A stretch of 64,000 nt of DNA from Ricordea florida (Eukaryota; Cnidaria; Anthozoa; Corallimorpharia; Ricordeidae), in assembly GCA_949710005.1 (NCBI GenBank), contig OX453274.1:14694697-14758696 (forward strand), given 5' to 3'. The notes beneath the pieces are model-generated. The model was not told the DNA's origin. It did no database searches and saw only the letters and a program-made list of their open reading frames with translations. Below, in pieces: positions 3,684 through 37,200 of the stretch. The translations under genes and the position numbers were made by a program. Numbering within the stretch: position 1 is the first letter of the stretch; every line of letters begins with the position of its first letter.

Positions 3684-4145
3684 ATGGAAAAATTAGAAAC
3701 TTTGAGTAAAACAAATTTGAAAAGAATTGCGAGTTATTTAAAAATTAAAGGAAGATCAAAACTATATTTAAGAGAAGATTTTATTAATGAGTTTAAAAAG
3801 TTTGAAGAAGAAAAAATTATAAATTTAATTGAAAAAGTCACCACTACTTGTCCTTATATTTGCATACATGAAAAACATAAATATTTTTGCAAAGAATGTA
3901 GAGGATCTCAAATATGCATTCATGATAAAGTTAAATATTTTTGCAAAAGTTGTAAAGGAGCACAAATATGTATACATGGAAGAGTTAAGTATCGGTGTAA
4001 AGAATGTGGCGGGTCACAAATATGCATACATAATAAACAAAAACAACAATGTAAGTATTGCGGAGGATCACAAATATGCGAACATGGTAAACAAAAAGCT
4101 TCTTGTAAGGAATGTAGAATAAAATTAAAAAAAATTATGATTTAA
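3684..4145 (+). CDS. SAP-like domain plus CxH/CxxC zinc-knuckle repeat protein
   Basis: A 153-aa protein. Residues 1-40 look like a SAP/HeH-type helix-loop-helix (SKTNLKRIASYLKIKGRSK). From about residue 53 there are five repeats of the pattern C-x-H-x7-C-x2-C with GSQ linkers (for example CIHDKVKYFCKSC), which should bind zinc. Similar CxH/CxxC repeats occur in giant-virus and algal proteins. The role is unknown; nucleic-acid binding is inferred from both domains. The E2 homologue is at 50762-51244. It is the outermost gene next to the TIR, transcribed inwards. Its N-terminal domain resembles that of the polymerase at the opposite terminus. Confidence 0.75.
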   Translation: MEKLETLSKTNLKRIASYLKIKGRSKLYLREDFINEFKKFEEEKIINLIEKVTTTCPYICIHEKHKYFCKECRGSQICIHDKVKYFCKSCKGAQICIHGRVKYRCKECGGSQICIHNKQKQQCKYCGGSQICEHGKQKASCKECRIKLKKIMI

Positions 4146-4150
4146 AGATA
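4141..4150 (+). promoter_or_regulatory. Promoter box of the E1 WHP gene
   Basis: TTTAAAGATA, 20 nt before the ATG at 4171. It overlaps the stop codon of the preceding gene. Confidence 0.6.
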
Positions 4151-4170
4151 TAAAATAAATTATTTAAAAA

Positions 4171-4698
4171 ATGGATGATGAAAACGGATTTAATGAGTTT
4201 TATTATCTTAATGAAAAAAGACTAGGCGTTCATGATTTTATAGAATCAATCAAGAAAGATTTGTTTAAAAAGATCTTAAAAAATATTGGTTTTATTGAGG
4301 GAATTTCTTTTGAAATATCGTATGGTAATATGTCTCGTTTTGATTTTTCTTATGATATAAAAAATTTTTTCGATATTGAGGTGTTTAATGATAAGTTTAC
4401 TAATGATATAATATATTATTTAAATGGAGAACAAGAAAGATATGATTTTATGATGAAATTTCTTTATGATGATGATGATGATGATGATGAACAGATAAAA
4501 TATAATATTAATAATGTTATTATTGATTCATTTAAAGCTGAGATGTTCATGGATTTTGATAAGATATTTCATAAAGAAGAATTTTACAAAGACTTACATG
4601 AGGATTTAATGGTTGAAGCATGGCATCCAAAAAGAGTTGTGGATTGGTGTTATGATATTGAGGAACAAGAAATTTTTAATTCTTTACCGGATGAATAA
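4171..4698 (+). CDS. WHP-motif hypothetical protein
   Basis: A 175-aa acidic protein with a run of seven Asp around residues 99-105 encoded by a GAT repeat. The C-terminus carries FYKDLHEDLM...AWHPKRVVDWC. This motif is shared with the E2 homologue ([11 protein letters not shown]) and, as I recall the family, with small proteins of giant viruses and Polinton-like viruses. The function is unknown. The N-terminal two thirds is poorly conserved between E1 and E2 and the tail is well conserved, so the tail is probably the functional part. It is convergent with the penton gene, and the two are separated by a hairpin. Confidence 0.7.
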   Translation: MDDENGFNEFYYLNEKRLGVHDFIESIKKDLFKKILKNIGFIEGISFEISYGNMSRFDFSYDIKNFFDIEVFNDKFTNDIIYYLNGEQERYDFMMKFLYDDDDDDDEQIKYNINNVIIDSFKAEMFMDFDKIFHKEEFYKDLHEDLMVEAWHPKRVVDWCYDIEEQEIFNSLPDE

Positions 4699-4725
4699 TC
4701 TTATATTTCTGTTACTAATAATTAT

Positions 4726-4755
4726 GTTATATAACCTAAATAATGGTTACATAAC
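4726..4755. terminator. 30-nt hairpin at a convergent gene junction (E1)
   Basis: Read on the minus strand it is GTTATGTAACC, an 8-nt loop, then GGTTATATAAC: an 11-bp stem with one G-U pair. It lies between the 3' ends of the WHP gene (+) and the penton gene (-). The same stem recurs twice in E2 at convergent junctions. It is likely a transcript 3'-end signal. Confidence 0.7.
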
Positions 4756-4761
4756 AAAAAT

Positions 4762-5397
4762 TTACCTAAATCTTAAACTAAAAGTTATGGGAGAACCATT
4801 CAGATCAAGTTTTTCCCATTTGTTATCTAAGATGGTTAAATCAAAATGGTTTATAACGCTATCATATTTTCGAACTGGAATTGTTGGATAATCCTTTGAG
4901 GGTATGTTTGCAAGTAGGTTTGATGGTGTGAGTTTCACAAGTTCTCCATATTTGGTTTTATTCATATATGAAGACTTATTATCCACTATACTACACATAA
5001 GTCTCAGCGGCTCCTTAATCTGTATATTTATAGGGTATAATTTACCAGGATTTATAACTTCAGGCACCCCCAATCCAACCGCTAACCCTCTCGTAAGTTT
5101 AATGTTAAAGTTCTTATTTGAATATAGATAGTCAACAGTGTCTGTCTCAATGATTGTTATCTTTGCCTTATCAGTATCATTAAGAAAGATCGATTGAATA
5201 TCACGCAACGAATATGTACCGGGTTGAATTATTATTAAGGCTTGATTCTTTTCATTGTATAATATCTGTTGATCCTTGAAATTAATCAATCTTTTGGTTT
5301 TTATATTACAATCCAGGAGTTGTATCTCCCGAAGATTTTTCAGCGGAGGATCTAAATAAATCCTTGTTTCAGACTCATACATGGTAATGCTTAACAT
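4762..5397 (-). CDS. mCP: Penton-like minor capsid protein
   Basis: A 211-aa protein. The order of motifs matches Polinton penton (PX-type) proteins: an early strand pair (LREIQLLDCNI), GTYS with a helix, NIKLTRGLAVGLGVP, then LRLMCSIVD, a Y/V-rich middle and a C-terminus ending TFSLRFR. These are known to be single jelly-roll vertex proteins. The assignment rests on pattern, not search. It is the last gene of the late block. The E2 homologue is 49584-50213. In E1 a double hairpin (5401-5430) sits between its promoter box and ATG. Confidence 0.6.
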   Translation of the reverse strand: MLSITMYESETRIYLDPPLKNLREIQLLDCNIKTKRLINFKDQQILYNEKNQALIIIQPGTYSLRDIQSIFLNDTDKAKITIIETDTVDYLYSNKNFNIKLTRGLAVGLGVPEVINPGKLYPINIQIKEPLRLMCSIVDNKSSYMNKTKYGELVKLTPSNLLANIPSKDYPTIPVRKYDSVINHFDLTILDNKWEKLDLNGSPITFSLRFR

Positions 5398-5400
5398 TTT

Positions 5401-5430
5401 CCGCGTAGCGGGGAGGTCTTTAGACCGATT
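5401..5430 (-). repeat. GC double-hairpin element, copy 1
   Basis: Hairpin 1 is CCGC-GTA-GCGG, the spacer is GGAG, hairpin 2 is GGTCT-TT-AGACC, and the tail is GATT. It lies three bases before the penton ATG. Subtracting its 30 nt from the 52-nt box-to-ATG distance gives about 22 nt, the normal spacing, so it looks like a clean insertion into the leader. Its second hairpin, read on the minus strand, contains TCTAAAGA, which mimics the promoter box. Confidence 0.75.
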
Positions 5431-5650
5431 TTTTGATTACATCATATTCATCTTTAAATTTGCATTGACGTAATCACATTCCTGAGCGACGTTAGAAACC
5501 GACCTTTTTGAAGTAAACATAAAATCTACTTTTCGATTTCAAATCCACTTTACATTTTGCTTGTTGCTACGTCGTAAAAGTATGCAATCTATTGTTCTAC
5601 ACGTGAACGCTAATCCAAAAACAATGATAATCACGTGAAATGGCCATGAA
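5431..5650. other. E1-specific spacer between 521-aa and penton genes
   Basis: E2 has 34 bp between these genes and E1 has about 253. The promoter box for penton (minus strand ATTTAAAGAT) is at 5450-5459. About 190 bp upstream of it has no counterpart in E2 and no coding potential that I can see. Confidence 0.5.
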
Positions 5651-7216
5651 CTACCGAAATAGATACCACGCAAATACGCCAGTCGCAATTATAATTGCTA
5701 ATATATTATCTTCATGTTGCGTGGTCACGTCCGGTTTTACGCGTAGCGAGTCTGAGCCTTTGTCAGGCTTTTCATTTTGCGTTGGAGAGATTTTTGGTTT
5801 TGGATTTGTCTCAACTATTGAATGAGGTAACTTTAACTTTGAAGATCCTAAGTTATGACTTATTCCAACCGGTTTTGCTTCAGTGTTTAGGGAATTATTC
5901 GCCCCAAATTTCATATCATTAGTCGCTTTCATAAGTTTGTTATTATATCCAACCACGCTTTCAGTGTTAATTATCATATTACTTGGCATCAACCACAAAC
6001 CTGGAGCAATAGCTAAATCAAGGCGTAATTTCGCTTCTTGTACAGATAATTGATATCTTTGTATAGAGCTAGAAATGTCATTCTCAATCACACTACTCTC
6101 AAATAAAGCTAAGAATTCTTGTTGTGTCTCGATTGCTCCTCCACCATTACCATAAATCGAGTTTCTAGTGTTAACTTGTGCTCCCAATATACAGTAAACA
6201 AAAGCTTCAGCGGATCGATTCAATCTACCGAGTCCAGCTTTAGTGAGCCCATGTCCACTTGTTGGGATAAACCAAGCATATTTGAAATCAGCAAAGTCAT
6301 CATTACGAATAAATGAGATAAGATTACCCTTTTCTTTCTTACCACCTTCATCAGCGAATTTACCGCCTTCACCAGGCCATTGATCTGCTTCATAATCATA
6401 ATTTCTTACAACATGAACATTTTGATATCCTCCACCTTTTCCATGGTATCCAGAACCATAATCAAGGAATATATCTCCTAAGCCCCCGTTTCTACCACCT
6501 TTCCATCTAAAATCAGAATTATTACTAACCCCAAATTCAGCACACAATCGTTGATATGCAACTTTATTATATGGATTATTATTTATCACAAAAGGTTGTT
6601 CATCTGGCAAAGGCAGTTTCATTTCATACAATATTCGCCTTATTGTGAAATATATATGAAACTTTATAAAACTACTAATTACTTTAGGATAATTTAGACT
6701 CTCGAAAGGACTTATCCCACAACCAGATGTCGCACACCATACCGCAAAGTTAAGTTGTTGTGGCCAATAATTCATATCTGGTTTATTTAACCACTTTCTA
6801 CTTTGTTTTCCAAATTTGAATGTTACAACTTGTGATGTAAATATGTTTCTCATTTTTGCTGTGAATTTCTTCGTATTTGAAACATATATATCTAGTGAGG
6901 TTAGCATTTTTGTTACATCAGTTGTAAAGTCATCAAAGTTAATAGCTGGTATTGGGTAAGTTCGATTGGTTATGGATAAACTCTTTGGAAAAGATGAAAC
7001 TACTTCCGGTAAACTTAACCCTAAATCTTCCCATAACAATGTTTTCAAATTAGGAGAAAGAGTATCGGTCCATGTTTTTCCAGTAGGATCATCATTAGAC
7101 ATGACAGTCATCTCATTATATTTCCACTTAATATATCCTCCATATGAATCATTCACAAATGTAAATTTATCAAGACTAGCTTTTGGGTATCTATTTTTGA
7201 AATTCTCGAATAACAT
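5651..7216 (-). CDS. Large late protein with C-terminal membrane anchor
   Basis: A 521-aa protein of unrecognised family. The N-terminal and middle parts are globular, with conserved blocks (WLNKPDMNYWPQQLNFAVWC, RWKGG, GLGRLNRSAEAFVYC). A variable Ser/Thr/Pro/Lys linker covers about residues 450-500. The last 20 residues are a hydrophobic helix ending in Arg, a tail-anchor layout. The E2 homologue is 47948-49549 (533 aa). Its place between the membrane proteins and penton suggests a virion or entry-related structural protein, which is inference. The linker contains a possible decayed GC hairpin (5740-5769) missing in E2. Confidence 0.65.
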   Translation of the reverse strand: MLFENFKNRYPKASLDKFTFVNDSYGGYIKWKYNEMTVMSNDDPTGKTWTDTLSPNLKTLLWEDLGLSLPEVVSSFPKSLSITNRTYPIPAINFDDFTTDVTKMLTSLDIYVSNTKKFTAKMRNIFTSQVVTFKFGKQSRKWLNKPDMNYWPQQLNFAVWCATSGCGISPFESLNYPKVISSFIKFHIYFTIRRILYEMKLPLPDEQPFVINNNPYNKVAYQRLCAEFGVSNNSDFRWKGGRNGGLGDIFLDYGSGYHGKGGGYQNVHVVRNYDYEADQWPGEGGKFADEGGKKEKGNLISFIRNDDFADFKYAWFIPTSGHGLTKAGLGRLNRSAEAFVYCILGAQVNTRNSIYGNGGGAIETQQEFLALFESSVIENDISSSIQRYQLSVQEAKLRLDLAIAPGLWLMPSNMIINTESVVGYNNKLMKATNDMKFGANNSLNTEAKPVGISHNLGSSKLKLPHSIVETNPKPKISPTQNEKPDKGSDSLRVKPDVTTQHEDNILAIIIATGVFAWYLFR

Positions 7217-7335
7217 CTTATTCTTTGTGTTTCAGATAATCTGGTCTTTAGATTAAGAATAAGATGTAAATTGTTATCAATTAATTTCTTTTCTAATGCC
7301 TGCAAAACAATTACAACCCACATCAGTTCTTTCAT
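7153..7335 (-). CDS. Small hydrophobic ORF conserved at its start in E2
   Basis: A 60-codon ORF that overlaps the start of the 521-aa gene in another frame. Its first dozen residues (MKELMWVVIVLQAL) resemble the 21-aa ORF at the same place in E2 ([14 protein letters not shown]). The remainder overlaps the promoter and next gene and is not conserved. It may encode a micro-peptide, or the similarity may only reflect conserved leader DNA. Confidence 0.35.
   Translation of the reverse strand: MKELMWVVIVLQALEKKLIDNNLHLILNLKTRLSETQRIRCYSRISKIDTQKLVLINLHL
7243..7254 (-). promoter_or_regulatory. Promoter box of the 521-aa gene
   Basis: AATCTAAAGACC on the minus strand, 26 nt before the ATG. This is the TCTAAAGA variant. 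Confidence 0.6.
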
Positions 7336-7344
7336 ATGATATTT

Positions 7345-7941
7345 TTAATGAGCGGGAGTGGTTAACTCTTTTAATAGATCTGCACGAACTTCTCTTCTTA
7401 TCTGCGACATGTTTAAGTTTTTTTCTGTATCTCTCCTAAATTTTTGTCTGATTTCTAGTTTTAGTTTTTGAAACTTTTCCAACTCTGCTAAAATTATAGA
7501 AAATTCTTGATCAGATATAACATTATCTTTCAATGCCTTTGAAACCAAGTCGTTAATGGTGTTTAATTTTGACTTTGCTATAGAAGCAGTCTGTTCATGT
7601 TTGCTAACTTTATTTGAAAGTCGTTTAGAAGCAGCACCGAATCCAACCGATATTCCTCCACAAATTCCACCCACAACACCCAACGGAACACCAATAATAG
7701 CACCAAAACCGGTAAGAGAAGTCCCCAGCCCGCTTGCGGATAGAATAACAGAAAGCACTCCACTACAAACACTGATTTTTGTAAATATTCCTCTTGCTCT
7801 ATTGTATTTTTTCCTTACATCTTCATAATGTTTAATTTCTTTCTCAAGATTTTGTAATACTTCACTTGATTTTTGTAGCCTGAAATTGACTGGATCTGAA
7901 TTATTAGGTAATCCAGGGTAAATTCTATTGTATTCATCCAT
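7345..7941 (-). CDS. Coiled-coil protein with glycine-rich membrane hairpin
   Basis: A 198-aa protein. Residues about 20-50 form a charged helix, about 55-105 form two hydrophobic Gly-rich segments ([17 protein letters not shown] and VPLGVVGGICGGISVGFG), and the C-terminal half is helical and Lys/Glu-rich. It probably inserts as a membrane hairpin with cytoplasmic coils. The E2 homologue (47231-47848) is highly similar. No enzymatic motif is seen. Small membrane proteins of this kind are common in Polinton late blocks, and a virion membrane role is inferred. Confidence 0.65.
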   Translation of the reverse strand: MDEYNRIYPGLPNNSDPVNFRLQKSSEVLQNLEKEIKHYEDVRKKYNRARGIFTKISVCSGVLSVILSASGLGTSLTGFGAIIGVPLGVVGGICGGISVGFGAASKRLSNKVSKHEQTASIAKSKLNTINDLVSKALKDNVISDQEFSIILAELEKFQKLKLEIRQKFRRDTEKNLNMSQIRREVRADLLKELTTPAH

Positions 7942-7965
7942 ATTGTATTTTACTGAACGGTATGA

Positions 7966-7977
7966 TATCTTTAAATT
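7966..7977 (-). promoter_or_regulatory. Promoter box of the 198-aa gene
   Basis: ATTTAAAGATAT on the minus strand, 24 nt before the ATG, followed by the imperfect palindrome TACTGTTCAGTA-like element. Confidence 0.65.
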
Positions 7978-7979
7978 TG

Positions 7980-8969
7980 TTACTTGCTTCGCGGCCCAGA
8001 GGGTCTCTTTTTTATACTTTCAACAAAATACAAAACCACAGCCATTATCAAAAGCCAAGCATTCTTACCTAAAAATCCAATAACCTCGCCTGCTGTTTTG
8101 AATAGAAAGCTAACTATTGCACCAACCATTCCAGGCAATATTTCACCCAGTTTTTTACCAAGAGCTTTCAACCCATTACCAACGCCTTTACCTAATGTTG
8201 ATAGCCCTTTAGAAAGATTAGAAACTATAACCCCAATAACCAAACCTACAGCACTAATAACAGAAAAGACTGTAAAACCATACTTTTTGAAGATTGACTT
8301 AATTCGTTCTCTTAATGACATTCTTTCTCGGATTTGCTCACTCTCGCGATTCCTAGCAGCCATTTCATTATCATCATCAGCAATTTCTCTATATAAAGTC
8401 CCTATTCTTGCTCTTTCCTCTGGTGTTTTCAGTGGTTTATCCTCAAGGAATTTTTTCTCCTCCTTCTTTTTATTTTGTGATTCTTTTATCTTTTCAACCA
8501 CACGATCATTATCTTCAATGATATCTTCTGCTCTTGGCCCTAAAGCATTTTTTAGTTGGCCATCACGAAGTTTAGCTCCACTTTTAAGATTTCTAAATTC
8601 ACCACCTCTAAGAACATATGTAGCCGCATTAGTTCTACCTGGTAATTTAATTGCTGGTAATTTTATTCCTTTCCCGACATTTTGTAAAAATGTTATAATA
8701 TGTTGAAATTTTGGTTTTGGATATACAATTTTTATATCATCTTCAGCTTCTTTTTTTTCTTTAATCTTTTTAAAAAGGAGATCATTTTCATTAACACCAC
8801 CAAACGATGTTTCTACCCGCTCATCATCGTGGTTAATTAAACGAGTGGTTGATGATATTGTATCCAATTCCATATTTTGTTCATAAATATCATCATTATC
8901 ATCATCATCTTTTGGTTCATTTAGTTCAGTTGGGTCTAAATCTTCTGGTAAATATCCTCCTTCTGCCAT
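7980..8969 (-). CDS. Acidic/charged protein with amphipathic glycine-rich C-terminus
   Basis: A 329-aa protein. The N-terminus is acidic (runs of Asp), the middle is highly charged, and the C-terminal ~100 residues are hydrophobic and Gly/Lys-patterned (GLSTLGKGVGNGLKALGKKL), followed by a final membrane helix and a basic tail. The pattern recalls membrane-active capsid proteins such as adenovirus pVI, but that is analogy only. In E2 the corresponding gene is split by a frameshift (46010-46402 and 46332-47195). A GC hairpin (7986-8007) encodes the last residues here. Confidence 0.6.
   Translation of the reverse strand: MAEGGYLPEDLDPTELNEPKDDDDNDDIYEQNMELDTISSTTRLINHDDERVETSFGGVNENDLLFKKIKEKKEAEDDIKIVYPKPKFQHIITFLQNVGKGIKLPAIKLPGRTNAATYVLRGGEFRNLKSGAKLRDGQLKNALGPRAEDIIEDNDRVVEKIKESQNKKKEEKKFLEDKPLKTPEERARIGTLYREIADDDNEMAARNRESEQIRERMSLRERIKSIFKKYGFTVFSVISAVGLVIGVIVSNLSKGLSTLGKGVGNGLKALGKKLGEILPGMVGAIVSFLFKTAGEVIGFLGKNAWLLIMAVVLYFVESIKKRPSGPRSK
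7986..8007 (-). repeat. GC hairpin element, second type, copy A
   Basis: GC-TTC-GC followed by GGCCC-AGA-GGGTC. It forms the final codons (RPSGPRSK) of the 329-aa protein; the E2 homologue ends without it. Confidence 0.65.
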
Positions 8970-8990
8970 GATTTTTTACTCAACAGTAAG

Positions 8991-9003
8991 AAATCTTTAA
9001 ATC
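8991..9003 (-). promoter_or_regulatory. Composite late promoter of the 329-aa gene
   Basis: GATTTAAAGATTT on the minus strand, then CTTACTGTTGAGTAAAA (an interrupted palindrome), then ATG 21 nt after the box. Confidence 0.7.
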
Positions 9004-9019
9004 GCACACAGTGAAGTAT

Positions 9020-9412
9020 CTATAAAAATTTACTAACCATATAACCCAATGCCAACATACCGCCACCCACATATACCATTTCACCCATCTTTTGATTGTC
9101 GTTAGGTCTGTAATAATCTGAAAATTTAGGTTCTTGCATTTGACTATACAAGTTAAAAGCTTCATTTGTTTTTGAAATATTTTTTGATGCTTGATATTTT
9201 TCATCTTTTTTATTCATTTTCCAATCCATTAGTTTTTGTCTTTTTTCCTGATATTCTGCATAATCTCTTTGGTATTTTTCTAATGCTTTATCGTGTCTTA
9301 TTTTTTCTGTATCAACATTTTTCCCTGATAAATATTTTGCAAGATAGTTTCCACCAACAAAAGCTGTTGCATTTAATACTGCTCCCCCAAGCATCATTAA
9401 TATCGTTGTCAT
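9020..9412 (-). CDS. Small protein with two membrane segments and a coiled linker
   Basis: A 130-aa protein with a hydrophobic N-terminus (residues 1-25), a charged coiled segment ([20 protein letters not shown]), a conserved FSDYY motif and a hydrophobic C-terminus. E2 has a close homologue (44632-45030). The start is 3 nt after the stop of the 72-aa gene with no clear promoter box between, so both are probably read from one transcript. Role unknown; a virion membrane component is inferred. Confidence 0.65.
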   Translation of the reverse strand: MTTILMMLGGAVLNATAFVGGNYLAKYLSGKNVDTEKIRHDKALEKYQRDYAEYQEKRQKLMDWKMNKKDEKYQASKNISKTNEAFNLYSQMQEPKFSDYYRPNDNQKMGEMVYVGGGMLALGYMVSKFL

Positions 9413-9415
9413 GTT

Positions 9416-9634
9416 TTAATTTGGAAGTATCTTTTGTTCCTCTAAATATGTTTTTAGATACATACTACCAGACAGGACAGCCACCCATTTTGCATAATTT
9501 GTAATACTCGAGGATGGATCATTCATGAATGATTCTTTCATAGCCTTTTTAACCACATATCCAACTCCAGCTGCTAATCCAATAAGGGCCGCTGAATCAG
9601 TAACAGTTTTCACAAGTTTATTTTCGCTTGACAT
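9416..9634 (-). CDS. 72-aa membrane protein
   Basis: A short protein with two hydrophobic segments (ALIGLAAGVGYVVKKA and [12 protein letters not shown]). It is nearly identical in E2 (44414-44632), which supports a real gene despite the small size. Function unknown. Confidence 0.65.
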   Translation of the reverse strand: MSSENKLVKTVTDSAALIGLAAGVGYVVKKAMKESFMNDPSSSITNYAKWVAVLSGSMYLKTYLEEQKILPN

Positions 9635-9654
9635 GATTTTTTACTACATCAGTA

Positions 9655-9669
9655 AGAAACTTTTAAATG
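9655..9669 (-). promoter_or_regulatory. Composite late promoter of the 72-aa gene
   Basis: ATTTAAAAGTTTCTT on the minus strand followed by TTACTGATGTAGTAAAA and the ATG 20 nt after the box. Confidence 0.65.
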
Positions 9670-9704
9670 GCTTTATGTAGTAAAAAATAATTTATAATTT
9701 ATAA

Positions 9705-10157
9705 TTACATCATTCCAATTTTTGGTCGATCTAGGGGCGGTGCTTGAGTATTTGTTTGTGGTATTTGAGGAACTTGAGATAAAACAGGTATTCTATTTTT
9801 ATTATCCTCCTTTTGTCGGTATCTCATAAACATATCAAATGCTGTAAACCCTATTCCAATTATGGATAAAACAGTAGTAAAAGATAATTCTGGAAGCCAC
9901 GCTTTTGTATTTTCTTCATTATTTTCTGGTTTATTTTTTATATCCTCTCGTTTCATTTGCTCCGCGGCCCGTTGGGTCTCCCTGGCTAATGCTTCTCTAG
10001 CCATTTTGTTATATTCAGCTAATTTCTTACCAGAAGCGACTTTTTTAGGATCTTTTGCCTTTTTTCCTGTAGTTTTTTCTTCTTTTGGTGGATCTCTTGT
10101 AATTTGCTCCGCATAGCGGGGAGGGGCTTCGCCCCGATCAATAACTTCTTCAGACAT
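9705..10157 (-). CDS. Basic membrane-anchored protein carrying two hairpin insertions
   Basis: A 150-aa protein counted from MSEEV. An in-frame ATG five codons upstream overlaps the promoter and is also present in E2. The N-terminal half is Lys/Glu-rich. About residues 85-115 hold one hydrophobic segment (TTVLSIIGIGFTAFDMFM), then a Pro/Gln-rich tail follows. Against the E2 homologue (43953-44369), E1 has an exact 7-residue insertion (TQRAAEQ) from the hairpin at 9959-9980 and an extra block (DRGEAPPRYA) from the double hairpin at 10107-10139. Role unknown. Confidence 0.6.
   Translation of the reverse strand: MSEEVIDRGEAPPRYAEQITRDPPKEEKTTGKKAKDPKKVASGKKLAEYNKMAREALARETQRAAEQMKREDIKNKPENNEENTKAWLPELSFTTVLSIIGIGFTAFDMFMRYRQKEDNKNRIPVLSQVPQIPQTNTQAPPLDRPKIGMM
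9959..9980 (-). repeat. GC hairpin element, second type, copy B
   Basis: GC-TCC-GC then GGCCC-GTT-GGGTC. It accounts for seven extra codons in the 150-aa protein: E1 reads LARE, insert, MKRE, where E2 reads LARE then MKRE directly. Confidence 0.75.
10107..10139 (-). repeat. GC double-hairpin element, copy 2
   Basis: CCGC-ATA-GCGG, GGAG, GGGGC-TTC-GCCCC, GATC. This is the best-preserved copy. It lies in frame near the start of the 150-aa gene. Confidence 0.8.
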
Positions 10158-10177
10158 TATTTTACATATCATTAAGA

Positions 10178-10189
10178 AATCTTTAAATC
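10178..10189 (-). promoter_or_regulatory. Promoter box of the 150-aa gene
   Basis: GATTTAAAGATT on the minus strand, 20 nt before the MSEEV start. A downstream TTAATGATATGTAAAA element is identical in E2. Confidence 0.7.
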
Positions 10190-10202
10190 AATCGTATAAT
10201 AC

Positions 10203-10769
10203 TTAGTAGACAGTATCAGTACCGCTAGCATCTTGCTTAGTAGACTGCTCAGTTTTGTTAGAATCATCTGTAATTGTCCTTGAAACTTCTTGTATTTTGT
10301 TGAATTTGATGTGTTTAGCAACCTGGAACAGCCCGCTAGCAAGTGCTGCCAGTCTTCCTGCTTTCAATGCTAAGAGCCCTACAATGTTTGTTAGTTCGCG
10401 ATTAACCAAATCATCATTCTTCAAATCCACACAAAGAGCTTCTATATCATCTACAGGAACCATGTAAGAAATGACTTGTGAAACTAATTGAAGAGATGAA
10501 TCTACCAACCCACCGCTAATTTTCTTACCCATTACCGCTTGATAACGATTAAAATATTTTTCAATATCTTTGTCTGATAATTTTTTTATATCTCCCAGAC
10601 TCATATCTACCCCTAAATATTCCTTTGTGGTTCCAAGAGCTGCTAGAATTGCTAGTGATTCTTGTTTTATTTCAAGTTCATTATCATCATTATCTTTTAC
10701 CTTTTTTGTTTCTTCAATATAATCTTCCGGCCCTGCCGGGGAGAGATTCGCTCGATCAACTTCTGCCAT
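10203..10769 (-). CDS. Helical late protein of unknown function
   Basis: A 188-aa protein. The N-terminus is acidic, followed by conserved helices ([47 protein letters not shown]). There is no classical membrane span. The E2 homologue is 43363-43884 and is very similar after the first 30 residues. E1 residues about 4-14 (DRANLSPAGP) come from a GC double hairpin. It follows the packaging ATPase in both elements, so a packaging or capsid role is possible but unproven. Confidence 0.6.
   Translation of the reverse strand: MAEVDRANLSPAGPEDYIEETKKVKDNDDNELEIKQESLAILAALGTTKEYLGVDMSLGDIKKLSDKDIEKYFNRYQAVMGKKISGGLVDSSLQLVSQVISYMVPVDDIEALCVDLKNDDLVNRELTNIVGLLALKAGRLAALASGLFQVAKHIKFNKIQEVSRTITDDSNKTEQSTKQDASGTDTVY
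10727..10757 (-). repeat. GC double-hairpin element, copy 3
   Basis: CCGGC-CCT-GCCGG, GGAG, a weakened second hairpin (GAG...CTC) and GATC. It is in frame within the first codons of the 188-aa gene. Confidence 0.7.
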
Positions 10770-10793
10770 ATTATAATTTTCTAATAATACAAA

Positions 10794-10809
10794 GATTCTT
10801 TTAAATCGG
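10794..10809 (-). promoter_or_regulatory. Promoter box of the 188-aa gene
   Basis: A GATTTAAAAAAGAATC form on the minus strand, about 24 nt before the ATG. It directly adjoins a small GC hairpin (CGGC-TAC-GCCG, 10809-10819) that supplies the last codons of the ATPase. Confidence 0.5.
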
Positions 10810-11439
10810 CTACGCCGGTCCGTTTGGAATTTCCAAATAACAATTGAATGGGTAACGTAAACATAAACATAGCCTAGAATATTTTTCTGTTTTCAGTAGA
10901 TGCATAAACTTTTTACCTAATTCGTAATCCAAATCGCCACCATAATCTTCGAAAAACATTTTCATACCTTTTTGTGATGGATTATGGAAAGTAACAACGC
11001 AGGCTACATTTTCTCGGAATGGTTTTGCTATTGATGTTAATTGTTGAGTGAGAACCCAAACTGATAATCCATGATGTCTTCCAGAGAATGCTAAATCTAT
11101 AAACTTGTTTGATCGCTTCTTCAGATCGTTAGATACAGCACAATCATCTAAAATTATTAATGTATTTGTTCCAGAGAATAAAGTTTGACAATCAGTTAAC
11201 AATTCATTAATCTCATCAATGTTACTAGCATCTGGTGATAATACATAGAAATGTTTATCTCCTCGAGCAAAATTATGATAAGTTTTATTTTTAGAATAAG
11301 TTGGACATATTAAAACAATGTAATCAAAAATTTTTCGGAATGGTCCTCTTAGCTGATTAATGAGGTATTTTGTTTTCCCACAATTTGTTGGTCCGGTTAT
11401 GATACAATGGAATGGTATTTTTTCTCGTAGTTCTTCCAT
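10810..11439 (-). CDS. ATP: A32/FtsK-like genome-packaging ATPase
   Basis: A 209-aa protein. Walker A GPTNCGKT is at residues 16-23, Walker B TLIILDDC at about 93-100, and a sensor-like [15 protein letters not shown] follows. This is the compact ATPase of the A32/FtsK-HerA type that drives DNA into capsids in Polintons, virophages and large DNA viruses. It sits directly after the major capsid gene, as is usual. The E2 homologue (42713-43339) is almost identical. The C-terminal NGPA differs from E2 because of a GC hairpin at the stop. Confidence 0.9.
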   Translation of the reverse strand: MEELREKIPFHCIITGPTNCGKTKYLINQLRGPFRKIFDYIVLICPTYSKNKTYHNFARGDKHFYVLSPDASNIDEINELLTDCQTLFSGTNTLIILDDCAVSNDLKKRSNKFIDLAFSGRHHGLSVWVLTQQLTSIAKPFRENVACVVTFHNPSQKGMKMFFEDYGGDLDYELGKKFMHLLKTEKYSRLCLCLRYPFNCYLEIPNGPA

Positions 11440-11460
11440 GATTTTTGTATCATAACATAA

Positions 11461-11473
11461 TATTTTTTAAATT
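11461..11473 (-). promoter_or_regulatory. Promoter box of the E1 ATPase
   Basis: AATTTAAAAAATA on the minus strand, 21 nt before the ATG. The leader between box and ATG (TGTTATGATACAAAAATC) is the same in E2. Confidence 0.55.
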
Positions 11474-11478
11474 CGCTT

Positions 11479-11525
11479 CCAGCTTTGCTGGGGAGGGCTC
11501 CACCCGATCGCGGGCCCGGAGGGTT
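11479..11525 (-). repeat. GC double-hairpin copy 4 plus second-type hairpin copy C
   Basis: CCAGC-TTT-GCTGG, GGAG, GGG-CTCCA-CCC, GATC, then directly GGCCC-GGA-GGGTT ending at the capsid stop codon. The two hairpin types are joined here in one 47-nt block, in the 3' spacer of the capsid gene. E2 has an AT-rich spacer at this place. Confidence 0.75.
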
Positions 11526-12770
11526 TTAGTACTTAATGGAGCGTAAACCTGAATTCATAATCTCCATCATTGCATCAGCTACAACAAACATATGACAGGT
11601 TATAGTACCAGACCCACTTTGTTTTCTTTTAATTTCAAGTTTTACACCATCTTGTGTATTGTTTAATGCTAAACCACCTCCATGAATACCATTATCTGGG
11701 TGAGTTCTCATATCAACCCAAAGAGCAAACTTATCAGCATAAAAATCCTTTTCTTTTACGGATGGAGGACTATAAACATCATCTCTCTCAAATCGTTTCT
11801 TTACCGACTCCCATAGATCAGATGGTATCATTCCCTTAGAGTATAAACGATTTGGTACACCATCAACATCTATATTAATCGAGGTTATGCCTGGATTGTA
11901 AAAATTCTCAGAGTTACGTGCTCCTGCTGCAAATGGTGATGTAAACAAACATAATATCCCCGTCATTGATCTTCTAGGTAAATTAATATGCTGATTTATA
12001 ACATCATCACCGCCTATGGAAAAGGTAAAAGTTTTGTGGAGAGTAACATTTTCATAAAAGAATCCTTTACCAACCTGATATGTGGCTTGTGCCTCACGAG
12101 CCAAGTATTCACTTGAAATGGAAGAATATTCTAACTCTAGGTTTTTGATTGAATAAGATGGAGTCTTAGTAGTGTCAGAATAAACAACAATATCATTAAT
12201 TGGAGCAAGTGTAATCTCAAAGATTAGATGATTATCTAGTGCCTTTGGATAGAAAACTCCATGATCGTTTAGAATAGGATGGTTTAGTGGTATACGATAC
12301 TTGGTATTATGTACTGATGCAAGGGTAACTGCCCTAACATCTTGGGTTTTCTTATCACCCGCATTTGTCCTTAGCTTTCTCATGTTTTCAGAAGAAATGC
12401 CTTGTTTTAATCTATCTTCACGTTCTTCATCTGTTAAGAATAAATCATGGTAAGTTTGAAAAAGATCATATCTTTGAGTATCCTGTAATGTTTCACCTCC
12501 AAAAAGAACTCTAAGTCTAGATACAAGATTACTACCTACATTATTTACAAGTGTATTATTAGCATGCCCATCCACATCTAAATCAAATAATAGAGATACA
12601 CTTCCAGGTACAATCACTAAATTCTCAGAAAGTTTTGGTATATTTATATATAATGTTTCTCCGGGGCTGGCTGATGATGGATTGAGAGTAATTCGGTTAA
12701 TTGTTGATTCTGCTTTCAAACCAAATGGCTCTCTAGGAATTCTATTTGGATTAATTTTTTCAGACGTCAT
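11526..12770 (-). CDS. MCP: Major capsid protein (double jelly-roll type)
   Basis: A 414-aa protein. The N-terminal block has the repeated strand pattern of Polinton/adintovirus hexons ([55 protein letters not shown]). The centre contains long beta-rich stretches ([22 protein letters not shown]) and the C-terminus ends [16 protein letters not shown]. Its length is typical of compact double jelly-roll capsids, and it is immediately upstream of the packaging ATPase. The E2 homologue at 41427-42668 has one residue fewer. Assignment is by pattern and position. Confidence 0.7.
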   Translation of the reverse strand: MTSEKINPNRIPREPFGLKAESTINRITLNPSSASPGETLYINIPKLSENLVIVPGSVSLLFDLDVDGHANNTLVNNVGSNLVSRLRVLFGGETLQDTQRYDLFQTYHDLFLTDEEREDRLKQGISSENMRKLRTNAGDKKTQDVRAVTLASVHNTKYRIPLNHPILNDHGVFYPKALDNHLIFEITLAPINDIVVYSDTTKTPSYSIKNLELEYSSISSEYLAREAQATYQVGKGFFYENVTLHKTFTFSIGGDDVINQHINLPRRSMTGILCLFTSPFAAGARNSENFYNPGITSINIDVDGVPNRLYSKGMIPSDLWESVKKRFERDDVYSPPSVKEKDFYADKFALWVDMRTHPDNGIHGGGLALNNTQDGVKLEIKRKQSGSGTITCHMFVVADAMMEIMNSGLRSIKY

Positions 12771-12794
12771 TGTAATTTATAAGATACTTTGGTT

Positions 12795-12805
12795 AATCTT
12801 TAAAT
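12795..12805 (-). promoter_or_regulatory. MCP promoter box overlapping the integrase start
   Basis: ATTTAAAGATT on the minus strand, 24 nt before the MCP ATG. The integrase ATG (12804-12806) on the other strand overlaps the box. The same arrangement exists in E2. Confidence 0.7.
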
Positions 12806-13877
12806 GAGTAACGAAAAGATATCACGAAGGGGCTCTCTCTTCGATCGGACGAAGTCCTCCCCAGCGGAGCTGGAGCGTATATATTATTCAACTGAAGGAT
12901 ATTGGAAAGGATATTCCGCTATTAGTAAATTAGCTGATAAGGCGAAAGTAAGTCAAGATGTAGCGAAACAATGGTTAGAGAAACAAGCAATATGGCAAAT
13001 TTATCTTCCAGCTCCCAAGTATATTCCAAGACCACACTGGACTGTAGAAAAACCTAATCAGATTCATCAAGCAGATTTATTATTTTTACCGCATGATAGA
13101 GTTGGAAGAAAAACATATAAATATGCATTAGTTGTGGTTGATATCGCCTCGAGATATAAAGATGCTGAACCATTAACCTCAAAAGAAAGTAGAGAAATTT
13201 CAAATGCTTTTGAAAAAATATATTCTAGAAAGTTAAAATATCCAAAAACATTAATGGTTGATCCTGGAAAAGAATTTATGGGCGAAGTTACAAAACTTAT
13301 GAATTATCATAATGTGAAAATACAGAGAAGTGAAGCAGGAAATCATAGAGCTCAAGCATTTGTTGAAAACGCAAACAGAATATTAGGTGAAAAATTATTT
13401 AGCCATCAATATGCGCAAGAAATGATAAGCGATGATCGACGATCACGGGTATGGGTGAAAAGATTACCTGATATTTTGAAAACTTTGAACAATACGCCAA
13501 CAAGAATAACTGGCAAAGATCCTGTTAAATCTATAAAACAGAAGGAGGTTGATATTGAACCTAAAAAGTATAATCGAGTTGTTGGTCTTGATGAGGTTAG
13601 ATTGTCTCCTTATGTTAACGTTAGATATTTATTATTTCCCGGCGAACTTGAAGGCGGCGAAAAAAGGAGGGCAACTGATCCTATTTGGAGTATTAAAGTT
13701 TATAATATTTATAAAAGTATAATTTCACATAATCAACCGGTTTTATATTATTTGACTGATGGGCCGAGGCGTGGATTTGTAAGGGAAGAATTGCAAGTTA
13801 TTCCTTATGATACGCAGTTACCTCCTAATTCTGTTTTAGTTAGATCCAGATCTGCGGGGGAGGGCTCCGCCCGGTAA
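12804..13877 (+). CDS. INT: Retrovirus-like (rve) integrase
   Basis: A 357-aa protein. An N-terminal helical region (KLADKAKVSQDVAKQWLEKQ) precedes an RNase H-fold core with the acidic triad D91 (HQADLLF), D153 (MVDPGKEF) and E188 (AFVENANR). D153 and E188 lie 35 residues apart as in retroviral integrases. The tail ([26 protein letters not shown]) matches E2; no chromodomain is seen. It should insert the element with 5-bp duplications. Compared with E2 it has extra residues 8-24 (RRGSLFDRTKSSPAELE) from a GC double hairpin and an altered C-terminus (SAGEGSAR) from another. Confidence 0.92.
   Translation: MSNEKISRRGSLFDRTKSSPAELERIYYSTEGYWKGYSAISKLADKAKVSQDVAKQWLEKQAIWQIYLPAPKYIPRPHWTVEKPNQIHQADLLFLPHDRVGRKTYKYALVVVDIASRYKDAEPLTSKESREISNAFEKIYSRKLKYPKTLMVDPGKEFMGEVTKLMNYHNVKIQRSEAGNHRAQAFVENANRILGEKLFSHQYAQEMISDDRRSRVWVKRLPDILKTLNNTPTRITGKDPVKSIKQKEVDIEPKKYNRVVGLDEVRLSPYVNVRYLLFPGELEGGEKRRATDPIWSIKVYNIYKSIISHNQPVLYYLTDGPRRGFVREELQVIPYDTQLPPNSVLVRSRSAGEGSAR
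12843..12876 (+). repeat. GC double-hairpin element, copy 5 (reverse orientation)
   Basis: GATC, GGAC-GAA-GTCC, CTCC, CCAGC-GGA-GCTGG, AGC. It is in frame in the integrase N-terminus and, with the preceding GC-rich 20 nt, explains the extra residues missing in E2. Confidence 0.8.
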
Positions 13878-16800
13878 TGACCATATGGAAGAGTACGTAT
13901 TCCATCTTCTTGAATGATTCTCTTATCATCATCAGCAGATAGTGCAACTTTATTAACAGTTTCAGTATAAACAAAATGCTTATAACTTCTTATTACTGGC
14001 ATTTCTCTCATCTGCTTTGCTTTGCTATCCAAACATTCCTTGTAATCATCAAATCTTATACTATTTTCTACAACTGATTTCTTCATTCCTTTATCCTTTT
14101 TTATCTCTTCACCATCATCCATCCTGAAAGCGTATAGCTTAGCTCGTAGACCAACAAATTCGGTTATTATTCTACCACCAGCTTCATCTTTAAACTTACC
14201 AATTACTTTTTTGTTTACGCCTGTCTCAATGCCTGATGGATGATTTTTAGGGTAATTGCTGGTGTCAAACATTTCTCTAACATCAGGGCTTATATCCTTA
14301 TAGAAATCCACAGTTTCTATATCATATACAAGACTATCTGTATCCGTCATAAGTAATTTGGCTTTTTCACCATATTTTGGTTTAATATAATTATAATGAA
14401 AGTCATACATCATTGCTTTACTTATATCTAAAATACACATTCCTAAGTAAATAGGTTTATTGTATTTTATATGTGTTCTATTCATATGTACCGCCATAAG
14501 ATTTTCAGAAAAAATAGTACGACGATTATAGTTAGCTTTTGATATTAATTTTCTTGCTTCTTTCTCATTTGTTACTAATCTTATATCAACCCTTTTTCTA
14601 AGATTTTCCATTGTTTTACCAAATACAGAGTTGTTCATAAGTTTGAAGAAATCTTTTTCAAAGTCGTTTTTCGCTTGTGCTCTCAATTTTGTATTCAAAT
14701 CTATGTAAGGTTTTAACCATGCTGACTCTTCAAATGTAATTCCTCTGTGAATCTTTGTTACTTCTAACCCAAGACTTTCATATTTTTTTAGAGTTTCATG
14801 GTGAACTACATAATTCTTTTTATTGTTGAGGTTTGGTATCAATTTCTCAACTCTATTAACCTTAATTCTTTCCGGGGCAAGAGGATAATCACTATGTAAA
14901 TCATGAAGATGTTGTGAATATTTTAAATCAACCTCTAATATACATGGTATATTTCTCCAATTTGTTAGTTCTTTTTCAATCATCCATTTTAAATCATGAG
15001 TGGGTAGTGGTTCACTCATTGCCCCACCATATAAATTATTTGCATCTAGATATTGTATATAATTTGTAACCATTTTAGGATCATATTCTTTCATGTACGG
15101 GTTATTTGCTTTAGCATATCTGTTTGATATTTGAGCTATACCACCTCGAACTCCTTTCTCAATCATAATTAACATATCAATGTCGATTATCATCTCCAAT
15201 TCAATTTTGGTTAACTTTAACATTGCATCCCAAGCTAGTCCTGGGGCTGTATAATACCAAGCAGGATCCAAACCATAATTTGTTTGGCAAACATCTCTAA
15301 AGTTTTCAAAAACATCTGCTAATAATAACACATCAGACTGTAGATATAGATTAAGGTAATCTCTCATTGTTTTCATATTAAAAGTTTCCCATACCTTTTT
15401 AGCATGTTCATAATCTTCATCTGAAATATCTTCACCTCTAAGTTTTGAGTAAAAAGATTCCTTTGGTGGAAGTTGAGTTTCGTTTAATTTATCAAAATCA
15501 TCAAGCCAATCATATGGGAATACTCCCTTTCTCAATAATAACTTTAATTCTTCACCTTCAAAATACTTTGTAATTTCATGTAGGTTTTTATCTGTTGGAT
15601 TAAGACACCTACTTCCTTTTATTACACCTTTACAAACATCACACTTTCCACATTTAGTAAGATTACTAGACAAACTATCAAGACTTGATGACATAAATTT
15701 TAATGAATCTATAAACTTTATATCTCTCTTAACATCTATCATCTTATCACTTTCTTTATCTTTGTAGCTATCAACCACAATCTCTTTTGAGAAAGAAATA
15801 TACTTTTCCTCATTATTTGGTATAAGTTTTATTTTACCTTCTGTTTTTGCTAGATTATTAATAAATAGATGAGCATCATAGCCTGATAAATTGTGAATTA
15901 TAACTGGAAAGAATTTTGGAATCTTATAATTTAAATTGCATTCATTATGTGCTGCTCCTCTATACTTTCCTGTAAGATGACAGTGATCTATTACCTTATC
16001 TTCACCTAATTCTTTCTCACATATATGGCAATGAGTTGCGTTTTCATAGTTTATTTTTTCATCTTCAGTCATATTCTTCTTATTAAACTTTTTGAATCTT
16101 TTTACATTATAACTAATACATTTTTTATAAATTTCCTTAAATTCTTTCTCTAGATATTCAACAAATTTCTGTGCTACATCATCTTCTGAAGATTTAGCCG
16201 TATATCTATAAAATCTTGATTTACATATATTTTCATTAAAACTCTTAATATAACAACCAAATGCGATGGGTTTGTGGGTTTGATATTTATTTGTAAAACT
16301 TTTGCTTTTATCTAGAGGCTCATTATTTTTTATTTGTTTCAAAACACACTCAAAATCAGCATACGCAACAAAAGGTATTCTCATTTTTTTCACAAAATTT
16401 TTAAAAGAAATAAAACAAGGATTTCCATCTTTATCTTTTAGCATATCAATCCTTGCTTCATTGTACAAATAACAATATCCTTCGTGCTTTTCCAATGAGC
16501 TTTTTAAGTGAAAATGATGCAAACAATTATCACAAAAATACAACTTACATTTACGTTTAGTAACTTGTCTGCGTATAAGCGCACTAATATTCTTTATTAA
16601 AACAAAATGTTTATTTGGTTCTTCATCTTTATTTTCTTCATTTGTTTCTTCTGTTAATAAAAGTAATCTAATCAATTTAAATCCTCGTTTACTACTTCTT
16701 TTTATAGGATATACTCCTATTTTCTCATCATATCCATATATGGCGATATCATAATCATTTTGGTTTTCAAAATTAACAACATCTTGTATTGCACTTGGAA

Positions 16801-34200: not shown

Positions 34201-37200
34201 ATTTCATTGATACCGTCCTGGTTAACGTCGTCGTCCCGTTTTTCTTGATTTAACTTCTTGTTTTTACAAGTGTTGGCTGAGCTGTTAGATCAGTTTCTAT
34301 ATCTACATTTTCCTAAAGCTCTTCGTCTTCGCTGTCGTCTAAGTTTTTAAGGGATATTTTGTTCAAGCCCGCCCAGAGTATTCAACGAAAATTCGGGAAA
34401 TTGTTCGAGAATTTCTCCCATTTACTTCACTGCGGAACGATTACTCGAGCTCCTTCCTTTATACTCTCATAGAGGACGCTACTCGGACCAATCATATCGC
34501 GCGTAGTATTGGGGCTGTACTATAATAGTTAATTATAATTATATTAATTAATTGTTTCAATTAAAAGGAATTCCAGAAGCGGCAGAGCTGATTGATGTGC
34601 CCATTGAAGTAAAGGGTGAGAAATTAATCTTAAAATGGGTTGAACCACCAAACAATGGAGAGGAGATCACGCAATACACTGTTTACAAAAGAACCGTGAA
34701 TTCTAATGGTACAACAGGAGACTGGACCACAGTGGTGAACATCACCGATGTTTCAGTTCGTGAATATACCATAAAGCTGAACAACTGCGAGATATGTGAG
34801 TTATTGGTGACGGCAACAAACAAGTTTGGTGAAGCATTGAAGTTACAAGAAAAAGTACAGAGATTCAAAGTAACATCAGGTTTGTTAGACAGTTATCTGG
34901 TTCTGATTTTGGTTTTTATTTATCTTCGATCGGTGGACTGCACCAGTTTTAAGCTTGCATCTCCATACCAATATCTATATAACGCAAGTGCCAGTAATCT
35001 CTGTAGAAATAAAATATCGCAGAGTAAATTTATCTATTGCTGCTATTTAAGATCCGTTTAGAGCTATAGTAAAAACGCTGTCTTGGCAAACAAGCAGCGA
35101 TTACATGGTTTGTATTGTTTGTATTGCCATTCTCAAGGCAAGGGAATGACTTTACTTTTTCTCCGTAAGTGTCTTGCGGGATCTAACTGCAGTGTAGGAA
35201 TCCCGGACTTTCTCAGTCCCGTTCCTATATGCCATACTTACGAGTCTAGGAAGATGCAGCTCTCCTTCCTCTTTCCGTTTTATTTAACTCGTTTTAAGGT
35301 TACTGTCTACCTTCAGATCGGCAATTTTCTTGAAAGTTGGATTTTTAGGTTAAAGTAATGATCGAAATGTGGTCTCTAATTAGAAAAAAAAAAATTATTG
35401 AAAAAGGCCTAATATTGGCGGAGAAATAGAGGTTTTACGCTTTGGCCAGAGTAAAAATTACCCAGCTGATTGACATTCTTAGCGCTGTTTTCTTGACAAT
35501 AGAGTGACATGGGAAGGGGACACTTTAAAGAGTTAAAACTCAAATAGGATTTGTTCGTTTGAGTAGTATGTAAGCGTGTTTATAAGTACGTTTTAGGTTA
35601 TTTTTTAAATTTGACAGAAAAATCTTTGTTCTTTTTTTAGCTTACAGGTTATTTTTAAAATTTGACAGAAAAATCTTTGTTCTTTTTTTAGCTTACAGGT
35701 TATTTTTAAAATTTGACAGAAAAATCTTTGTTCTTTTTAGCTTACGGGTTATTTTAAATTTGACAGAAAAAAGATAGGGATTTTTAGCTTAAATTTATAA
35801 GTTCATTTTCTTTTTTATCAGAGATTTATCAGAAAACTAAACAGAGATTTTTTCAGATTACAAAAATAAAAAATGATATTTAAAGATTAGAAAAATACTC
35901 ACAGAAAGTAATTATGGATAAATTAAATGTTCATCAATTAAAGAAAATAGCTAAGGAAAAAGGTGTTTATAACACCAAATTAATGGTTAGATCTCAACTT
36001 ATCGAGGCTTTGAATAATATACCGGGTTTAAGAATTAACGTGTCAGAAATACTTACTGATAGACAATTAAAAACGATAGCAAAAGATTTTGGCATTAAAG
36101 ATTATAAAAGCATGAGCAGAAATCAACTCAAGAAAGTTTTAGGTAATAGATCAGAACTTATAATTGAAACCCCGTCAATTAAAACGCATGAAACAGAAGA
36201 GGAGAATATGGAAAGAAATTATGAAAAAGAAGGTGCAAAACCTAAAAGGAAAAATATTACAAAAAGAAAACTCGCACCTACTTTTATAAAACCCAAAAAA
36301 CGATCAAAACAAATTTTTAATTGGGGAAATTATTCATTTAGGGTAATGGATAAAGACGAGTTTTCCAAAAAGCTTGAAGAATTAACAAATGAAAATATCA
36401 TAAAAATTAATAATAATAGGCAAACTAAAACAAAAGGAAAGGTAACTATATCTGATAGTGTGAGAGATGAATTGAAGGAAAAAACTAAAAAGAAAAGAAC
36501 AATAGTCCTTAAAATATTTTCAATAATCCAAAATGAAGACCACCCCCCAATTCGTAATACCGAAGGAATAAATGTAAATATTATTAGATTTAGGAGGGAT
36601 CTAAATAATGATTTGACAGAAATAATTTATAATGAATTGGAACCCAAAATAGAAATGGGGGCAAGAATTGTTTTCAGTTTTACTGCTTTGATTCAAAGAG
36701 GAAATGGGGAAATAGCTTATCACGTACACACATTTAGAAGTGGAGGAACTTTTAACTCCCTTTCAGAAATAAAAGATTATATAGAAAGGTGTGAGGGTGA
36801 GAGATTGAGTTTAGAAGGAGCTGCTTGGAGTAGGGCATATTTACCCCCCGAAAAGAAAATTAATAAACCAGGTGTTCATGAGGGCGGGGTTGAGTTTAGG
36901 GAAGTGCAAATAAAAGTTATTCTCACTAGACAACCTTTAATTGGGTGTGGAAGATTACCTGACGAGCTACGCAAGAAAAGATGTATTTACTCCGTAGATG
37001 ATAAAGACGATAATCTATGTGTATGGAGGTGTTTAGCTATTCTCATGAATATTATTGCTGGTAAACAAAACCCTGAAAAACGAATAGAGAAACAAGCGCT
37101 AAATTTAGCTAAAGATTTTTATGACAATAAAAAAATGAAAAAGACAGATGTTAGATCAACGAAATTAGTTGATTTTGAGAAAATTTCAAAGGTTTTTTCT

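Follow-up and report, generated by a model that had tools for sequence, protein, structure and literature searches.

Double-hairpin elements in Polinton/adintovirus-like proviruses of the corallimorpharian Ricordea florida: a probable family of tiny mobile elements

The window, the whole stretch of 64,000 nucleotides analysed here, lies on the contig labelled C3 of the Ricordea florida assembly (538 Mb in 48 contigs). Two related Polinton/adintovirus-like elements are found in it, surrounded by host DNA. The host DNA encodes immunoglobulin, fibronectin III and tyrosine-kinase-type domains, a content that appears compatible with an animal. The two elements are the following.

3684..18076 (outermost open reading frames), no strand: E1, a Polinton/adintovirus-like element that holds all six double-hairpin copies of the window
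35914..51244 (outermost open reading frames), no strand: E2, a related Polinton/adintovirus-like element in which no double-hairpin copies were found

The proteins of E1 include an rve integrase, an A32-like packaging ATPase and a polymerase-like protein of 1,423 aa; one of its proteins gives a weak match to a capsid N-domain. The integrase of E2 is 85% identical to that of E1. In the polymerase-like protein of the E1 type, Pfam places an endonuclease VII domain at residues 670-715 (window 15932-16069); for the protein of the E2 type it gives a Rho_N match only. Each end of E2 (35595-35791 and 51371-51572) has 51-nt tandem repeats, and the two sets are inverted relative to each other. Near one end of each element (3853-4122 in E1, 50836-51065 in E2) lie 54-nt repeats that code for a Cys-rich repeat protein. 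The assembly contains at least 128 integrase matches, and none of those listed has an internal stop. The lengths of the integrase reading frames rise in steps of about ten residues: 328, 339-340, 349-350, 360 and 371.

The six double-hairpin copies of E1 are the following.

5401..5430, + strand: double hairpin with a 4-bp first stem, directly upstream of the start of a 211-aa gene (5397, - strand); 20.2 bits
10107..10139, + strand: double hairpin in the 5' part of a 155-aa gene (9705-10172, - strand), the opposite strand reading DRGEAPPRYA in frame; model hit 10109-10139, 23.4 bits
10727..10757, + strand: double hairpin in the 5' part of a 188-aa gene (10203-10769, - strand), translated DRANLSPAGP; 41.5 bits
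11479..11509, + strand: double hairpin in the gap that separates the ATPase start (11439) from the capsid gene end (11526); 47.6 bits
12843..12873, - strand: double hairpin near the 5' end of the integrase gene (12804-13877, + strand), translated DRTKSSPAEL; 49.1 bits
13846..13876, + strand: decayed double hairpin where the integrase (SAGEGSAR) and polymerase (YRAEPSPADLD) genes converge at their ends; 39.5 bits

A covariance model (R1) run over the 64-kb window returned exactly these six, at 20-49 bits. The four other listed hits scored at most 9.8 bits, and the model found no double hairpins in E2 or in the host DNA of the window. Its alignment included four of the six copies, or sequence identical to them; the two outside it, at 5401 and 10109, are also the two that score lowest. 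A strict mechanical scan found five double hairpins in E1, none in E2 and none in the remainder of the window, where 300 first-order simulations of E1 gave a mean of 0.027 for E1 and a maximum of 1. The copies are 60-74% GC and E1 as a whole is 32% GC. Four of the six lie inside reading frames. A single hairpin, CGGC-TAC-GCCG, occurs at 10807-10817 in the 3' end of the ATPase gene (7 bits), and is perhaps half an element.

An earlier sequence-only reading of this DNA had described six copies of one layout. All six are present by model and scan, while the layout had been misread at three of them. At 5401 the second stem, given as GGTCT/AGACC, is actually GGTC/GACC with a 4-nt loop. At 10727 the predicted fold of the second stem has three pairs only, and at 13846 mismatches break the first hairpin and the tail is GGTA. 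Folding of single copies is not remarkable (z -0.4 to -2.0). Such fold energies do not discriminate; the support for the family comes from covariation and from precise insertion.

The first hairpin of the unit has the form CC..C nnn G..GG; the linker GGA(G) joins it to a second hairpin, and CGAT forms the tail. Compensatory changes in the stems, claimed from the six copies, are confirmed by two larger comparisons. In the first, pattern counts were taken across the genome for pair 3-11 with the other positions fixed. They gave A-T 398 times, G-C 140, G·T 28 and A·C 10, and the reversed control of every version gave zero. Most of the G·T copies (20/28) sit in arrays on contigs C1 and C2.

The second comparison is an alignment, A6. 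It takes in three window copies and 29 31-mers from a set of 38 that are distinct and fully paired; the nine others, with long or odd second hairpins, were excluded. In A6, 97.6% of cells are paired and 29 cells are changed on both sides, and neither value was reached by any of 500 shuffles; sliding the partners gave 28-52% pairing. Of the five measures taken, two are unexceptional: pairs with a two-sided change number four (reached by 27 of 500 shuffles and equalled by one slid version), and further pair types number eight (reached by 402 of 500). Because the 29 31-mers had been preselected for a paired stem 1, that stem is not independent in this test; the second stem, no part of the selection, is independent, and both the pairing and the two-sided changes extend to it. 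Compensatory variants can also be seen at a single site, cluster 2, where CCGCC/GGCGG and CCACC/GGTGG occur along with the mispaired CCACC/GGCGG.

Further copies in the host genome had been expected, and hundreds of pattern matches exist in the assembly: the pattern CCNNCNNNGNNGGGGAGG occurs 439+445 times, compared with 81+68 for the reversed control. The context of the matches was studied in the first 100 CCNNCNNNGNNGGGGAGG places, which extend to position 48.2 million of contig C1, using pieces of 2.6 to 6.6 kb. Context therefore comes from C1 alone, except for three short C2 pieces and the window, which is on C3. A place was counted as lying in a Polinton if a match to an E1 or E2 protein (tblastn) occurred somewhere in the same piece.

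Both free pairs of stem 1 are paired at 68 of the 100 places, and each of the 68 is in a piece with a match to an E1 or E2 protein. Eleven places lie in pieces without a Polinton protein match, and none of these eleven is fully paired. The other 21 are in Polinton pieces and incompletely paired, 16 of them coming from two inverted arrays (C1:1306237-1318896). Within the sampled 48.2 Mb, fully paired copies are thus confined to Polinton pieces; the proviruses are related to one another, so the copies are not independent. A polymerase match occurs in 18 of the element-bearing pieces, not counting the window; in 17 of these the polymerase is nearer to that of E1, and in one (L069) it is nearer to that of E2.

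Some matches belong to a tandem-array variant with a poorly paired first stem and steps of 44 to 97 nt.

C1:1306237-1306862 and C1:1318460-1318896, inverted pair: tandem arrays that flank one provirus
C2:26430422-26430847, C2:26449412-26449633 and C2:26454402-26454474, no strand: tandem arrays, of which positions and strands only were recorded

The arrays on C1 give the impression of an insertion into a terminal repeat that was followed by amplification.

Searches of viral contigs with the capsid protein, the integrase alignment and the element pattern gave no relative. One place in a viral contig that fitted a looser pattern was rejected as chance: its reading frames look phage-like, it scores 12 bits and the first hairpin is absent. 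In prokaryote contigs, one exact pattern of the double-hairpin family was found at no place.

The boundaries of the unit were determined from 81 copies, comprising 75 of 115 model hits and the six window copies; addition of a copy in L090, a piece of a C2 provirus, brought the total to 82. The hits left aside were 35 weaker ones, some of them perhaps real, and five of 25 bits or more whose spans were odd or which lay in the L065 repeats. In 80 of the 81 copies the base before the element is T, a position used by neither the pattern nor the model. Written as T-[CC...CGA]-T, the unit is 30 bp long in 67 of the 82 copies, 33 bp in six (with a longer second stem), 32 bp in two, 29 bp in one and 28 bp in six. 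One T at each end of the insert forms the flanking repeat. The target was at first read as TC; this was dropped when the L082 site and the copies with a GATA tail left T alone in common.

Related elements had been expected to show matching empty sites, and exact ones exist. The opposite outcome, in which relatives carry the same sequences at all the same sites without conserved structure or a model search finds no more copies, is the reverse of what was found. An exact empty homologue is available for 53 of the 82 copies and for 16 of 30 site clusters, with flank identity up to 99.3%; the counts are the same once 30 alignments to filled copies are removed. For the other 14 clusters no exact empty site was found in the pieces compared. 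The clusters are over-split, since 13/14 (perhaps with 16), 17/28 and 26/29 look like single sites, and about 25 is a safer count than 30.

The integrase copy of E1 provides the clearest pair. Compared with L090, the sole indel is the 30-bp element, and six substitutions are seen in 1,198 aligned bases (99.5% identity). The site at 10727 shows a clean 30-bp absence in L089, a C2 relative, and the element is also absent from the E2 homologue. The site at 10109 has an exact empty counterpart in L001 at 92.5% identity, with no clean absence in L089. At 11479 an exact empty site was not found among the compared pieces; the element occupies the identical place in 10 loci of C1 (cluster 1), and L089 has a diverged 17-bit copy there, which was left out of the counts. 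At 13846, L034, L041, L055, L084 and L086 carry better-paired copies (cluster 3), and the C2 provirus is also filled. Two empty positions lie in the window itself.

7286..7426, no strand: E1 empty counterpart of a filled site in L074, 99.3% identity over 141 nt
43371..43380 (approximate), no strand: E2 position homologous to the insertion at 10727, empty

The copies are precise insertions.

The reading to which we give most weight, with a probability of roughly 80%, is that the copies form one family of tiny mobile elements that live in the Polinton/adintovirus-like proviruses of this host and are confined to the virus. It draws on the covarying stems, the precise presence and absence, identical elements in different contexts, both orientations, nesting and in-frame insertion. 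Movement would be by copy-and-paste on viral DNA. Arrival at new sites is suggested by comparison between proviruses, and precise loss or recombination could account for some of the differences.

The distribution of the copies over sites bears on this point. The most populated sites have 12, 11, 8 and 7 members, and both orientations occur. One identical 29-mer recurs in three contexts: between the capsid and ATPase genes (cluster 1), between the 329-aa and the 198-aa gene (clusters 13/14) and within the 155-aa gene (cluster 15). A second is present in the integrase gene and in the 521-aa gene (clusters 5 and 9). In L082, at 1488-1518, a copy is nested within another copy, and the uninterrupted host copy is present in L023 and L061. 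Clusters 1, 13 and 16 have different gene contexts and yet have about 9-17 flanking bases in common (GCTT...GCGG(G)CCC), so that transfer by short homology is possible there. Between the other contexts that hold identical elements (clusters 1 vs 15, 5 vs 9) no common flanks were seen.

Rates of change within shared sites were compared between parts of the element and its surroundings. Over six shared sites, at positions that the pattern left free, differences per base are 0.020 in stem 2, 0.011 in the tail and 0.178 in the loops; ungapped 50-nt flanks at these sites differ by 0.212, a value inflated by indels. At four sites with aligned 300-nt flanks, the flank values are 0.156, 0.076, 0.140 and 0.131, the loop values 0.242, 0.115, 0.244 and 0.095, and those of the unfixed stem positions 0.088, 0.015, 0.098 and 0.067. 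Loops thus diverge at about the rate of the flanks, and stems more slowly. The slow divergence of stems could reflect selection on structure after insertion, or the repeated arrival of structured elements at one site. At the same four sites, loop differences do not track those of the flanks (rho -0.20, 0.37, -0.32 and -0.21; Mantel p 0.95, 0.09, 0.93 and 0.86). Descent from a single origin at a site is therefore doubtful, and the evidence leans towards repeated arrival or transfer.

Transfer between proviruses is also suggested by their mosaic structure. When E1 is compared with the C2 provirus (window 9979-13963 vs C2:1317150-1321150), the integrase piece mentioned above differs by 0.5%, and the pieces neighbouring it differ at 55 of 804 positions (6.8%) and at 75 of 790 (9.5%). 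Adjoining segments that diverge so unequally mark the proviruses as mosaics, and the contrast suggests recombination between them.

The copies might then be old insertions, merely reshuffled by recombination or by homing-like gene conversion at fixed sites, with no current movement to new ones. The mosaicism, the independence of loop variants from their flanks and the common short flanks of clusters 1, 13 and 16 all agree with this. Reshuffling alone cannot make many distinct sites or a nested copy, and identical elements stand at sites whose flanks are unrelated (clusters 1 and 15, 5 and 9), which leaves it an unlikely account of the family.

Another explanation is that the double hairpins are functional cis elements of the virus, such as signals for RNA processing, termination or packaging, which are inherited in place, the differences between relatives being losses. 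Sites common to many copies would be expected of such elements, and so would paired positions that vary little beside variable loops. On the other hand, the copies fall into many site clusters, in both orientations and in coding as well as intergenic DNA; E2 has none that could be found, and one copy is nested. Identical elements occur in different gene contexts, and near-identical proviruses are found with and without a copy. Functional cis elements are accordingly improbable, and the family of mobile elements remains the preferred reading.

Insertion into coding sequence can be followed at the protein level. In the 188-aa protein, E1 reads M-AEV-DRANLSPAGP-EDYIEE and the E2 homologue is without the insert. 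In the integrase, SLF-DRTKSSPAEL-ERIYYS of E1 corresponds to SLF-ERIYYS in the homologue P0001. In the 155-aa protein, MSEEVI-DRGEAPPRYA-EQIT of E1 corresponds to MSEEVV-EQIT in P0141, which is exactly 10 residues shorter. Likewise, the polymerase C-terminus of P0121 is ten residues shorter than that of E1, at the tail-to-tail overlap of the integrase and polymerase genes. Similar peptides occur elsewhere in homologues, for instance SDTR-PAKGGEGSAR-SRVW (P0003) and YMRY-RAEPSPQSGY-RQN (P0183). Among the matches listed, 12 of 260 proteins share a word of six residues with the translation of an element, P0061 probably by chance.

A copy was scored as coding if a reading frame similar to an E1 or E2 protein spans it and has an ATG upstream. 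By this simple rule 49 of the 82 copies are coding, at least one of which (L026 409) lies upstream of the point where its gene usually starts. They lie in the integrase, the polymerase, the capsid protein (L066) and the 521-, 329-, 198-, 188-, 155- and 130-aa proteins; one copy, at the 211-aa gene, is doubtful as a coding copy. The length is a multiple of three in 44 of the 49 coding copies and in 29 of the 33 non-coding ones. As the non-coding copies are also mostly multiples of three, these counts do not demonstrate selection for frame: 30 bp is simply the natural length of most units. When 37 elements are read in six frames, 203 of the 222 frames are free of stops.

The byp elements of Magnusiomyces mitochondria are skipped during translation. 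If coding copies of the double hairpin behaved in the same way, the proteins would be unchanged. Hairpin inserts inside coding genes, including those for capsid and integrase, recall the byp case, and stops do occur in the remaining 19 of the 222 frames. Inserts that are mostly 30 or 33 nt long and free of stops in most frames make skipping unnecessary, and it is very improbable here.

For the family of mobile elements preferred above, a mechanism may be proposed, which as a whole is tentative. Polinton-type viruses are thought to use a protein-primed polymerase for replication. During such replication the double hairpin would form on single-stranded viral DNA. A structure-specific nuclease would then release or copy it, and the hairpin would be joined at a nick after a T, with a fill-in of one nucleotide. 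Recombination among provirus copies may afterwards carry the element to homologous sites. The tolerance of genes for the inserts would be explained by their length, a multiple of three, and by the scarcity of stop codons.

The rve integrase of Polintons produces flanking duplications longer than one base, and the single T of the flanking repeat argues against it. A candidate for the putative enzyme is the endonuclease VII domain in the polymerase of the E1 type. That this domain is needed in cis is unsupported, as one of the 18 element-bearing pieces, L069, has a polymerase of the E2 type; Pfam gives no endonuclease VII domain for that type, and L069 would need help in trans. A system like REP/RAYT, in which a Y1 (HUH) transposase moves hairpins, can be set aside as scarcely credible, since PF01797 was not matched in the assembly by a search that was positive in 5 of 14 control genomes, although the size, the hairpin and the G-rich tetranucleotide do recall REP units.

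Several known systems resemble the family of mobile elements in part. The sequence-only reading had compared it with mitochondrial double-hairpin elements and with the palindromic elements of Rickettsia, and both comparisons are apt as analogies. By its features the family is best read as analogous to these elements and as a member of neither. Like the mitochondrial double-hairpin elements and GC clusters of Allomyces, Schizosaccharomyces and yeast, it has GC-rich hairpins, conserved pairing, patchy presence and short flanking repeats. Passages of PMC4478555 describe AG or ACT flanking repeats for yeast mitochondrial GC clusters and, for GC42, a single target in sites without the element at 25 of 89 homologous positions. 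The double-hairpin elements of fission yeast are placed between genes or in rRNA genes in an excerpt of PMC10085805. Unlike mitochondrial GC clusters, the sampled copies are in provirus pieces on a 48.6-Mb contig, have a repeat of one T, are mostly 30 bp long and are frequently inserted in frame into protein genes.

The Rickettsia elements are also palindromic inserts that stand in frame in protein genes. They are bacterial and about 150 bp long, nearly half lie within reading frames and a fusion protein can result (excerpt of PMC10969869), whereas the present elements are 28-33 bp long and found in proviruses; the two are set apart here by description. Sponge mitochondria have repetitive hairpins and double hairpins (excerpt of PMC2800124), which likewise are repeated in an animal-hosted genome, but these are mitochondrial and were compared by description only. 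Passing mention of byp elements is made in an excerpt of PMC10701893. Like MITEs, the elements are short non-autonomous repeats with empty sites. In contrast to MITEs, no terminal inverted repeats were seen in the copies and empty sites inspected, and the flanking repeat is 1 bp. No description of such elements in Polintons was found in titles, in the openings of abstracts or in the abstract of PMC5799277.

The movement of such minimal hairpin elements is unsettled in mitochondria as well: passages of PMC4478555 leave the route of yeast GC clusters undecided, weigh cut-and-paste and RNA routes and call for experiments. For the present family, the 48 contigs of the assembly supply matches by the hundred, filled and empty sites come in near-identical pairs, and the unit that follows a T is defined. 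Since paired copies in the sampled contig occur only in Polinton-type virus DNA, the search for the enzyme is narrowed. It is conceivable, and we advance it with reserve, that the elements represent a class of mobile DNA found in viruses alone, which has no gene of its own and consists of 29 nt and one duplicated T. Such DNA would transpose through single-stranded double hairpins while the virus replicates, and would lengthen viral proteins, capsid and integrase among them, by pieces of 10 residues. The family would also exemplify mobile in-frame inserts that reshape the proteins of a eukaryotic DNA virus.
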